Origin: Ignavibacteriales bacterium
Lineage (GTDB): Bacteria > Bacteroidota > Ignavibacteria > UBA10030
DNA: 64,000 nucleotides
NCBI GenBank assembly: GCA_026390575.1
Contig: JAPLFR010000007.1
Coordinates: 124,001 to 188,000 of the forward strand
Reading direction: 5' to 3'
Part shown: positions 12,166 to 46,408 of the stretch, piece after piece
Layout of the letters: the number at the start of each line of letters is the position of its first letter
Position numbering within the stretch: the first letter of the stretch is position 1
Notes under the pieces: model-generated
Told to the model about the DNA's origin: nothing
Database searches by the model: none
What the model saw: the letters and a program-made list of their open reading frames with translations, nothing else
Made by a program: the position numbers and the translations under genes

Positions 12166-13090
12166 ACTAATCCTCTCATTGATGGGTTTATGTAATTTAT
12201 GGTTTACGTTTCTTTCTTCTCAAACGAGGTCGGAAGGTTGTCCTACCCCGCCATTTATAGATCATTAATTCTCTCTTAAAATCTTATGAATAAGTTCATT
12301 AACCGGGAATAGTCCTAAAGGATGAAAAAGTAGTTAATCCTTTTTGGGAGAAAGAAATATACTTCATAGAACGTAGAAACGCGGTGAATCGTAGACTTTT
12401 AACGTTTTCGCTGTCATGAAGGAATCGTGTCTGGGAAAAGGATGAGCAAGAATTACAAGATCTCTTCGTTAAGGGCGAATATCACTCCCAGGAGGCGAGT
12501 TTGCGTAGAGACCATCTCGCAGATGGACAACCATTGGGTTTTATCCAATATAGTGGCGGACTCCACTGATCTGTGCAACTCCCAAAAAAGTATACACGTG
12601 AAGTTTCAAATGTAACGATGGTAAGTCCCCACCTGCGTCGGACAGGCAGTTCGTAACCGGGCTTCTATATTGTCCGACTGCAAGTCGGACTCTACCATTT
12701 TTTACGGTATTGATCAGGACAGCCGGAGGCCTGAGAATGTTATCGTGTATTGCACGATTCAAATTCTTAATCCTTCCCGCTTGACCGCACTAAACTGAGA
12801 CACTGCCAAATATATTCTTGCGTTTCGAGCATCTCGTTCATAGATTTAATACGGTTTTACAAATTAAATGTAATGATTCGGAATAACCTTAAAACAAAGC
12901 AGATAAATTGAATTCCAACAAAAGTCAATTCCGTGGATGCATTGTGTGGTAAAAGAGAACATATCTATTACTCCCGGTGTGCAAGGTGCTGACTATGGTT
13001 TTTCGGTACAATTGAAATTTTAATTTCCACGTAGAGACGTTCAATTGAACGTCTCTATAAAAATTTTTTGCCGTTGATATAAAGAGTAGA
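12166..13090. other. Long spacer, no convincing gene
   Basis: About 925 bases lie between the lipoprotein gene and the first tandem repeat unit. Short open frames exist (for example 12427-12615 plus and 12541-12762 minus), but none has a ribosome site together with recognisable protein-like sequence. The only structure I see is a palindrome at 12672-12690 (GTCCGACT-GCA-AGTCGGAC), an outlying member of the repeat family found just downstream. It could contain a decayed gene or an RNA that I do not recognise. Confidence 0.5.
12672..12690. repeat. GTCCGACT palindrome, isolated copy
   Basis: Perfect 8-bp stem with a 3-base loop (GTCCGACT GCA AGTCGGAC), followed by CTCTACCAT. The same palindrome with the same following bases occurs in the tandem units at 13091-13330, so this is a dispersed member of one repeat family. 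Confidence 0.7.
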
Positions 13091-44014: not shown

Positions 44015-44848
44015 ATGAACACATTATCCCTCGAAAAGAAAACCTTAATCCTTAATTCCCTTGTTGAAGGAAATTCAATCCGTTCTACGGAACGCCTTAC
44101 AGGTGTAACCAAAAAAGCTATTACTAAATTGCTTGTTGAAGCCGGAGAGCAAGCAAAAGAAATCCTTGATACTCAATTAGTGAATATTAAATCTAACTTT
44201 GTGCAGGTAGATGAAATCTGGACGTATGTAGGGAAAAAACAAAAGCAACTTAGAGAAGGCGATTCAAAAGAATTAGGCGATCAATATGTATTTGTAGCAA
44301 TGGACGCGGAAACGAAACTTGTTCCGGCTTTCAGGGTAGGAAAAAGAACAATGGACACAACGCGCACATTCATAAGGGATTTGCAGTACAGAATAATCAC
44401 ACGATTTCAACTCTCTACCGATTCATTTAAGCCGTACTTCAATGTTGTAGATGAAATCTTTGGCGAAGATATTGACTATGGGCAGATTCACAAAGAGTAT
44501 AGAGAAGATAGCAAAGGCGAGAAGCGGTATAGTCCCGCACAGATTGTGAGGGTAATAATAACCCCGTTAATTGGTCAACCTGTGAAAAGGAATATTTCTA
44601 CCAGTTACATTGAGAGACAAAATTTAACAATGAGAATGCAAATGAGAAGATTCACAAGATTAACAAACGCATTCAGTAAGAAGTTATGGAACTTGGAATG
44701 TGCCGTTGCATTACATTTCTATCATTACAACTTTATGAGAATCCATAGCTCATTGAGAGTAACACCAGCAATGCAAGCGAACATCACGCATAGATTATGG
44801 ACATGGAATGATTTATTGATTAGTGCACAAATGAAAAAAGCCGCATAA
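44015..44848 (+). CDS. IS1-type DDE transposase
   Basis: A 277-residue transposase. An N-terminal helix-turn-helix (GNSIRSTERLTGVTKKAITKLL, about 20-41, in two parts) is followed by an RNase H-like catalytic core with Asp66 (VQVDEIW), Asp136 (LSTDSFKPY) and Glu200 (SYIERQN), and then LTMRMQMRRFTRLTNAFSKK, a signature of this IS1-like group. It is a single frame, unlike classical IS1 where InsA and InsB are joined by frameshifting. GGAGCACTGCA precedes the ATG. It is the only transposase in the element, and its family fits the GGT-starting ends and 8-bp duplication. Confidence 0.93.
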   Translation: MNTLSLEKKTLILNSLVEGNSIRSTERLTGVTKKAITKLLVEAGEQAKEILDTQLVNIKSNFVQVDEIWTYVGKKQKQLREGDSKELGDQYVFVAMDAETKLVPAFRVGKRTMDTTRTFIRDLQYRIITRFQLSTDSFKPYFNVVDEIFGEDIDYGQIHKEYREDSKGEKRYSPAQIVRVIITPLIGQPVKRNISTSYIERQNLTMRMQMRRFTRLTNAFSKKLWNLECAVALHFYHYNFMRIHSSLRVTPAMQANITHRLWTWNDLLISAQMKKAA

Positions 44849-45858: not shown

Positions 45859-45942
45859 GCCCGGATGGCGAAATTGGCAGACGCGCTAGCTTCAGGAGCT
45901 AGTGATCGCAAGGTCATGGGGGTTCAAGTCCCCCTTCGGGCA
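45859..45942 (+). tRNA. tRNA-Leu (anticodon CAG)
   Basis: An 84-base class II tRNA. The acceptor stem GCCCGGA pairs with TTCGGGC (one G-U), with discriminator A. The anticodon arm CTAGC-TTCAGGA-GCTAG puts CAG at 45893-45895. The variable arm TGATCGCAAGGTCA is long, as in leucine tRNAs, and the T arm GGGGG-TTCAAGT-CCCCC is perfect. CCA is not encoded (the genome reads CAA after the discriminator). No introns or mismatches. Confidence 0.96.
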
Positions 45943-46031
45943 CAAGTAACGTTAAAATTTCAGTCCTGATACTTCGTTACACACAAGATAATGCTGCACG
46001 CGATGCGTGCAGCATTATTAGGCTTCCAGCG
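45934..46031 (+). repeat. tRNA-tail repeat unit A (98 bp)
   Basis: Begins with CTTCGGGCACAAGTAA, whose first nine bases are the tRNA-Leu 3' end, and ends CTTCCAGCG. It contains the perfect hairpin ATGCTGCACGC-GAT-GCGTGCAGCAT and the string CTGATACTTCGTTACAC. A terminator follows at 46042, so this unit should be part of the tRNA primary transcript. Confidence 0.85.
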
Positions 46032-46041
46032 CTTCGGGCAC

Positions 46042-46082
46042 AAAAAGGAAAAGCCACTCCTTGTGGGTGGTTTTTCCTTTTT
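46042..46082 (+). terminator. Terminator of the tRNA-Leu transcript
   Basis: AAAAAGGAAAAGCCAC pairs with GTGGTTTTTCCTTTTT (one G-T) around a 9-base loop, ending in T residues. It lies about 100 bases past the tRNA, after repeat unit A. Confidence 0.8.
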
Positions 46083-46171
46083 ATATCTCTCAAACGGATT
46101 TGATATTCAAGTTGAGTGAAGCCGTTATGAAACGGCTGAACGAAATCCCGTTGCTTTATAGCGGGATCCCC

Positions 46172-46367
46172 CTTCGGGCACAAGTAATGTTAAAATTTTA
46201 GTCCTGATACTTCGTTACACGGAAGGTAGAGATGCACGCGATGCGTGCAACATTATCAGGCTTCCAGCGCTTCGGGCACAAGTAATATTAAGATTTCTGA
46301 CCTGATACTTCGTTACACACAAGATAAAGATGCACGCGATGCGTGCAACATTATCAGGCTTCCAGCG
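46172..46367 (+). repeat. tRNA-tail repeat units B and C (2 x 98 bp)
   Basis: Units B (46172-46269) and C (46270-46367) are directly tandem and each 98 bases, like unit A. Unit B is preceded by TCCCC, so the match to the tRNA 3' end extends to TCCCCCTTCGGGCACAAGTAA, slightly into the T arm. Both keep CTGATACTTCGTTACAC, the hairpin core TGCACGC-GAT-GCGTGCA and GGCTTCCAGCG. A further CTTCGGGCACAA follows unit C just before the terminator at 46378. Confidence 0.85.
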
Positions 46368-46377
46368 CTTCGGGCAC

Positions 46378-46408
46378 AAAAAAACCTCGCATTGCGAGGT
46401 TTTTCTTT
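46378..46408 (+). terminator. Terminator after repeat unit C
   Basis: AAAACCTCGC-ATT-GCGAGGTTTT with flanking A and T runs, usable on both strands; on the minus strand it would end transcription of the phosphatase gene at 46503. Confidence 0.75.

Follow-up and report, generated by a model that had tools for sequence, protein, structure and literature searches.

Tandem 98-bp repeats behind tRNA-Leu(CAG) of an Ignavibacteriales bacterium, a probable remnant of a tRNA-homing GIY-YIG element

We analyzed a tandem array of three 98-bp repeats downstream of the tRNA-Leu(CAG) gene of an Ignavibacteriales bacterium (GenBank assembly GCA_026390575.1). The window, that is, the whole stretch of DNA analyzed, comprises 64,000 nucleotides (nt) of contig JAPLFR010000007.1 (positions 124,001 to 188,000 of the forward strand). 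Positions below are counted from the first letter of the window, and all features of the array are on the + strand. The sole tRNA gene of the window is tRNA-Leu(CAG) (45859–45943), detected by ARAGORN and Rfam (tRNA, 53.3 bits); it is intact, and its CCA end is not gene-encoded. An earlier reading of these letters, referred to here as the original prediction, had described three units of exactly 98 bp and a closing tail within 45934–46378. We confirmed this, with the units starting at 45934, 46172, and 46270 and the closing CTTCGGGCACAA at 46368–46379. It had also stated correctly that the units carry a real tRNA-Leu 3' end, as the tail CTTCGGGCACAA that bounds them is the last 12 nt of the tRNA gene region.

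Repeat analysis showed that unit A (45934–46031) consists of the tRNA tail, a spacer, and a dispersed palindromic repeat designated R1. Units B (46172–46269) and C (46270–46367) are built in the same way. R1 was detected by a covariance model at 45982–46030 in unit A (56.8 bits), 46220–46268 in unit B (62.2 bits), and 46318–46366 in unit C (65.3 bits), each time directly before a tail. The locus contains five copies of the tail, including that of the tRNA itself, and unit A is likewise followed by one (46032–46043). The tail is 12 nt long in the units, and a longer match to the tRNA (16–17 nt, CCCCCTTCGGGCACAA) precedes unit B. When treated as a 115-nt repeat, the copies were 89–91% identical to the first copy. 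The sequence CTGATACTTCGTTACAC occurred three times compared with 0.19 times expected from shuffles, and the three genome-wide occurrences of GCACGCGATGCGTGC were all in the tRNA-Leu(CAG) array. All three units are located between the tRNA gene and its ancestral terminator, and no open reading frame (ORF) longer than 83 amino acids was found in the insertion.

A terminator-like palindrome (46042–46082), which resembles the one after tRNA-Leu in the relatives G012 and G005, follows the second tail. As unit A lies between the tRNA gene and this palindrome, it is probably transcribed as a tRNA trailer, in agreement with the original prediction. Between this palindrome and unit B, positions 46106–46181 read as a candidate T-arm and acceptor relic of tRNA-Leu with an insertion in the T-loop, in which TTCAAG is followed by a 55-nt insertion of two palindromes (46112–46166) and by TCCCCCTTCGGGCAC. 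We keep it as a candidate because its left part is only 6 nt long and weak alone. This type of arrangement also fits tRNA-Met of the same genome, and it is seen in G013 as well. An IS1-like transposase gene (44015–44848, + strand) is located about 1 kb upstream of tRNA-Leu(CAG).

The original prediction had proposed a search for the unit in related genomes. Among 32 family genomes, the unit was present in that of the window and in the genus-mate G004, which has one copy at the same tRNA; the other 30 were without it, and four other genus-mates have the tRNA without the unit. G004 and the window share a nearly identical right half of the unit, whereas the left half is strongly different. Comparison with the genus-mate G001 revealed an empty site, in which CACAGAAAGACCTCGCATGCCGAGG follows tRNA-Leu without interruption. 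The homologous flank and terminator of the window are found after the last tail, approximately 430 bp further on. Therefore, the distal tail (46368–46379) is the displaced original 3' end, and the terminator after it (46380–46404) matches CCTCGCATGCCGAGG, the terminator directly after tRNA-Leu in G001. Thus, the end of the target gene is duplicated around the insertion and an intact target is kept. Searching for exact tails near tRNA-Leu gave nearly no matches in 30 relatives because the relic tails are broken or mutated, and their detection required BLAST with pieces of the tRNA. Where contigs of genus-mates carry names, these denote uncultured Ignavibacteriae, in several cases from fens. In G054, an array resembling clustered regularly interspaced short palindromic repeats (30-nt repeat GTTTCAATTCTACTGTAGTCCGATTCAAAC; locus L060, from about 1590) is located directly downstream of tRNA-Leu.

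The three 98-bp repeats are one case among many tRNA-end leftovers in this genome. Beside at least 11 of its 48 tRNA genes lies a partial copy of the gene, 16 nt or longer, compared with 11 of 2256 non-cognate pairs. Many of these partial copies are split by palindromes located in tRNA loops. For example, the copy of tRNA-Val(GAC) reads ATAGGTTC, the insert TGCGCCAAAGGCGCATGAGCCTTCGGCTCA, and GAGTCCTATAGGGCCCAC, and that of tRNA-Arg(UCG) reads GGGGGTTC, 34 nt, and GACTCCC. The T-loop break point GGTTC^GA is common to the Val (GAC and UAC), Lys, Thr, Ala, and Arg copies. The palindrome lies in the anticodon loop of the Ser(GCU) copy and replaces the anticodon arm of the Pro copy; tRNA-Asn has an upstream 5' copy with a palindrome in the D-arm. 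The 47 junction inserts analyzed elsewhere had a median folding z-score of −3.1. Breakpoints fell in the T-loop 32 times compared with 20 expected, and 11 fragments started at a single T-loop position, the commonest insertion point. Tandem tRNA-Ala/Cys copies were also observed (L194, G000 contig 4), the last of which is broken in the T-loop by a 66-nt insertion with multiple hairpins. The original prediction considered structures of this kind to be rare elsewhere. This was wrong for the lineage, as tRNA-end copies adjoin many tRNAs of the genome and the phylum, and the comparable leftovers elsewhere mostly lie beside a small GIY-YIG nuclease gene, which the letters of the window could not have revealed.

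Eight small GIY-YIG ORFs were identified in the genome of the window, six of them near a tRNA gene on the same strand. Five immediately follow the 3' end of Leu(CAA), Ser(GCU), Pro(CGG), Gln(UUG), or Arg(UCG); the sixth, a further copy, is about 440 bp away from the Ser gene; and the remaining two are at contig ends. At tRNA-Leu(CAG), the nuclease gene was found in the order-mates G057, G019, and G029 and in the class-mate G283. Across 61 genomes of the order, 49 of 110 small GIY-YIG domains had a tRNA within 300 bp, in all 49 cases on the same strand; these loci were taken from top-scoring matches, and the percentages therefore do not amount to a census. A broken copy of the paired tRNA was located beyond the nuclease gene in 42 of 46 distinct tRNA/GIY-YIG pairs. 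The polarity of the fragments was strict, with one exception among the first-listed fragments. When the tRNA was upstream of the nuclease gene, these were 3' parts in 14 cases, middle parts in seven, and a 5' part in one; when it was downstream, they were 5' parts in 13, middle parts in seven, and 3' parts in none. The intact form of the proposed element, which is common in the phylum, has a GIY-YIG gene between an intact tRNA and a broken copy, in the same direction.

The tRNA-linked proteins form a clade, with three changes of linkage on the protein tree compared with a shuffled minimum of 26. Nuclease lineages track the tRNA isotype (14 changes for 11 classes, compared with a shuffled mean of 38). 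The catalytic Y, Y, R, and E residues are invariant, and the proteins match Pfam GIY-YIG and, in PDB, UPF0213 and SLX1 chains. At the phylum level, members were detected in 145 of 296 genomes. In a set of 71 domains, which overlaps the first set in part and counts some loci twice, 44 had a tRNA no more than 300 bp away, without exception on the same strand. The remaining domains mostly belonged to additional units of tandem arrays. The order also contains another large clade of small GIY-YIG genes (L227–L238 and similar loci), with no tRNA or other Rfam RNA nearby. We found no earlier account of this tRNA/GIY-YIG arrangement in bacterial chromosomes in a literature search that left subscription journals largely outside.

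Tandem arrays are also found at other tRNAs. In G283 (L347), tRNA-Leu(CAG) is followed by five tandem units of 450 bp, each with a nuclease gene and each ending in TTGGCATTAGCCAGTGCAGG, CCTGCCTGCCGTCAGGCAG, and GTTCGAGTCCTGTTCCGGGCAC, which is the 3' part of tRNA-Leu interrupted in the T-arm by a palindrome. The ORF-less array in the window has its closest analogue here. Arrays of about 316–368 bp are located at tRNA-Ser and tRNA-Arg in G182, G337, and G111. In G008, a truncated tRNA-Leu relic is accompanied by three 133-nt units with tail, terminator, and palindromes and without a nuclease gene. The 98-bp array is most like nuclease-less arrays such as that of G008.

These results suggest that the array is probably what remains of a tRNA-homing GIY-YIG element, without an ORF and amplified in tandem. 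We also think it rather likely that such elements constitute a phylum-wide class, in which isotype-specific, free-standing GIY-YIG nucleases home into tRNA genes at loops, a replacement half keeps the tRNA alive, the displaced half is marked by palindromes, and nuclease-less forms, including the 98-bp array, are miniature or decayed derivatives. Insertion by an element with a replacement half is suggested because the polarity is fixed and an intact tRNA is retained. From these arrangements, we infer the following order of events. The nuclease would cut the tRNA gene at a loop, and repair of the break would insert the element with its own copy of the missing tRNA half, which would restore a working tRNA and displace the original half to the far side. 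The displaced copy would acquire palindromes in its loops, and these may destroy the cleavage site. Further rounds of cutting, together with recombination between the short direct repeats of tRNA sequence, could then generate tandem arrays. In the window, the displaced 3' end of tRNA-Leu(CAG) would have been amplified with the adjoining R1 palindrome into units A to C, and the nuclease gene would have been lost.

Several observations weigh against this interpretation. The array and its surroundings contain no GIY-YIG ORF, and the nuclease genes that we found in this genome all lie at sites other than tRNA-Leu(CAG). Therefore, we classified the array as a remnant, not as a full member, and its assignment to the class is based on the tail duplication, the palindromes, the comparison of empty and filled sites, and the parallel arrays. 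The tail in the units is just 12 nt (16–17 nt before unit B), and the likeness of the spacer to the T-arm (TTTCAGTCC and TTCAAGTCC) is too short to serve as proof. R1 occurs near one other tRNA cluster of the genome only, and weakly (28.5 bits); elsewhere, tRNAs carry inserts from different palindrome families. The insertion points are also spread over sites outside the T-loop.

We characterized R1, which forms the 3' half of each unit. This half, a hairpin followed by CATTATCAGGCTTCCAGC, gave 26 matches in the genome with at most three mismatches and none with a reversed-pattern control. The covariance model detected 49 matches in the genome, some representing both strands of one copy, 4–59 in genus-mates, and patchy numbers in other genera. 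One further copy in the window (12722–12771, − strand, 39.7 bits) is far from any tRNA. The original prediction held that copies far from tRNA genes without the CTTCGGGCA start would make the unit an ordinary repeat. Such copies were found for the 3' half, whereas a whole-genome search found the complete 98-mer at the tRNA-Leu(CAG) locus only. In the copies on which the model was built, the hairpin has seven pairs and a loop of 3 nt. Because its 19 double changes include no G-U pair, the covariation suits a constraint on a DNA hairpin better than one on RNA. Arm-to-arm complementarity was copy-specific (permutation p about 0.002), but not so for the window units. Sixteen of 19 checked copies are outside long stop-free frames. 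By inspection, no direct repeat beyond the arms of other copies, which would indicate a target-site duplication, was seen, and an attC-like nature of R1 was rejected, as no integron core boxes were seen. In one R1 copy (L008, about 1240, G000 contig 9), a 22-nt palindrome, TGGCAAAGCCATGCCTTTGGCA, is inserted without target duplication; judging from this sequence, palindromes appear to insert into other palindromes.

A different origin, which we consider possible but rather doubtful, is that R1 behaved as a repetitive extragenic palindromic (REP)-like sequence that inserted behind tRNA-Leu beside a short tail duplication, and that the unit was multiplied by slippage or unequal crossing-over without any endonuclease at the locus. 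R1 is a dispersed family with a covarying stem, and TTCGG or a close variant is found at the same offset at the right end of eight of 23 other copies, so that the CTTCGG of the tRNA could be a microhomology with R1. The genome also encodes 13 Y1 transposases. We scanned 43 Y1-transposase loci, 13 from this genome and 30 from relatives. R1 was present on both sides at one of these only (L081), and two others, both from relatives, had a single weaker copy each. At L081 (1000–2100, G000 contig 7), a Y1 transposase similar to REP-associated tyrosine transposases (RAYTs) is flanked by tandem 36-nt GTAG-tagged palindromes and by two R1-like copies; L074, L077, L078, and L073 (G000) contain further Y1 transposases, each with its own flanking palindromes, e.g., CCTTGCGAAGGTTCTAAAACCTTCGCAAGG. 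A REP-like origin leaves unexplained the broken self-copies of other tRNAs, their differing palindromes, the fixed polarity, and the adjoining nuclease genes. With R1 on both sides at one of 43 loci and these tRNA relics unexplained, a pure REP/RAYT origin was rejected.

The original prediction related the array to the E. coli tyrT locus, where tandem repeats after the tRNA gene contain the tRNA 3' end (rtT RNA), and proposed that small RNAs could be produced. A functional small RNA processed out of the repeats in the tRNA precursor would agree with the position of unit A, its perfect hairpin, the near identity of the right half in G004, and a thermodynamic fold in which the 5' strand of the tRNA pairs with the second tail. 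We nevertheless judge it improbable and rejected it as a candidate. No Rfam RtT match was obtained at the gathering or a permissive threshold, which speaks against the proposed kinship. A conserved function was likewise not borne out, as the unit is restricted to two family genomes, conservation of its left half is poor, a dispersed palindrome mostly outside genes makes up its right half, and the G-U intermediates that an RNA would be expected to show are missing from the stem changes. Still less probable is site-specific integration, in which the tails would be attachment (att) sites of decayed tyrosine-recombinase elements. An insertion bracketed by direct repeats of a tRNA 3' end is what att sites classically look like; however, the four neighboring ORFs scanned had no integrase domain, palindromes interrupt the repeats, and there is also a class with upstream 5' fragments. 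Comparable loci mostly carry a GIY-YIG gene and are just 0.3–0.5 kb long.

If the nuclease-based interpretation is true, numerous stray fragments of tRNA and tandem repeats of tRNA ends in the phylum would be accounted for. tRNA genes are classic landing sites of integrases, and nuclease-driven rewriting of one half of a tRNA gene, with the old half left over, would enter an essential gene in another way. The elements may also supply a family of naturally isotype-specific tRNA-gene nucleases, and they offer a testable cause for rtT-like repeats.

We compared the array with known systems. It shares with rtT at tyrT (Rfam RtT) the tandem repeats with a tRNA 3' end after a tRNA gene, but has no sequence or model match and carries other cargo; the link between a nuclease gene and a broken tRNA copy was seen in this lineage only and was not looked for at tyrT. 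Like RAYT-associated REPs, the R1 part of the unit, and only this part, is a palindrome that is short, dispersed, and mostly intergenic and whose stem pairing is conserved, in a genome with Y1 transposases. R1 differs in its long stem and its conserved single-stranded tail CATTATCAGGCTTCCAGC, and no clear GTAG-type tag was seen. The free-standing GIY-YIG nuclease SegB of T-even phages cuts in tRNA genes at RAWTSGAAC and drives the tandem amplification of tRNA and segB (PMC13096335). The reverse complement of this motif, GTTCSAWTY, may correspond to the T-loop, where insertions were commonest here as well. SegB is thus alike in the small GIY-YIG gene beside tRNA genes, in cleavage inside tRNA genes, which is presumed here, and in tandem amplification (PMC13096335). 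The elements described here are chromosomal and the copy in the window is ORF-less, unlike SegB, and the passages of that report considered here describe neither a palindrome-broken tRNA copy nor isotype-tracking lineages. A tblastn search with one of our proteins returned two phage records only (39% identity). In fungal mitochondria, mobile ORFs replace the 3' ends of genes, namely atp6 in Allomyces and atp6, atp9, cox2, and nad3 in Glomus (PMC3630166). These are protein genes with mostly LAGLIDADG endonucleases, and the passages considered describe no palindromes in the displaced end, whereas our elements reside at bacterial tRNA genes and include 5'-end versions. In the fungal system, an endonuclease ORF brings a new 3' end that becomes fused to the host gene, and the native end is pushed downstream (PMC3630166); the elements described here would act in a similar way on one half of a tRNA gene.
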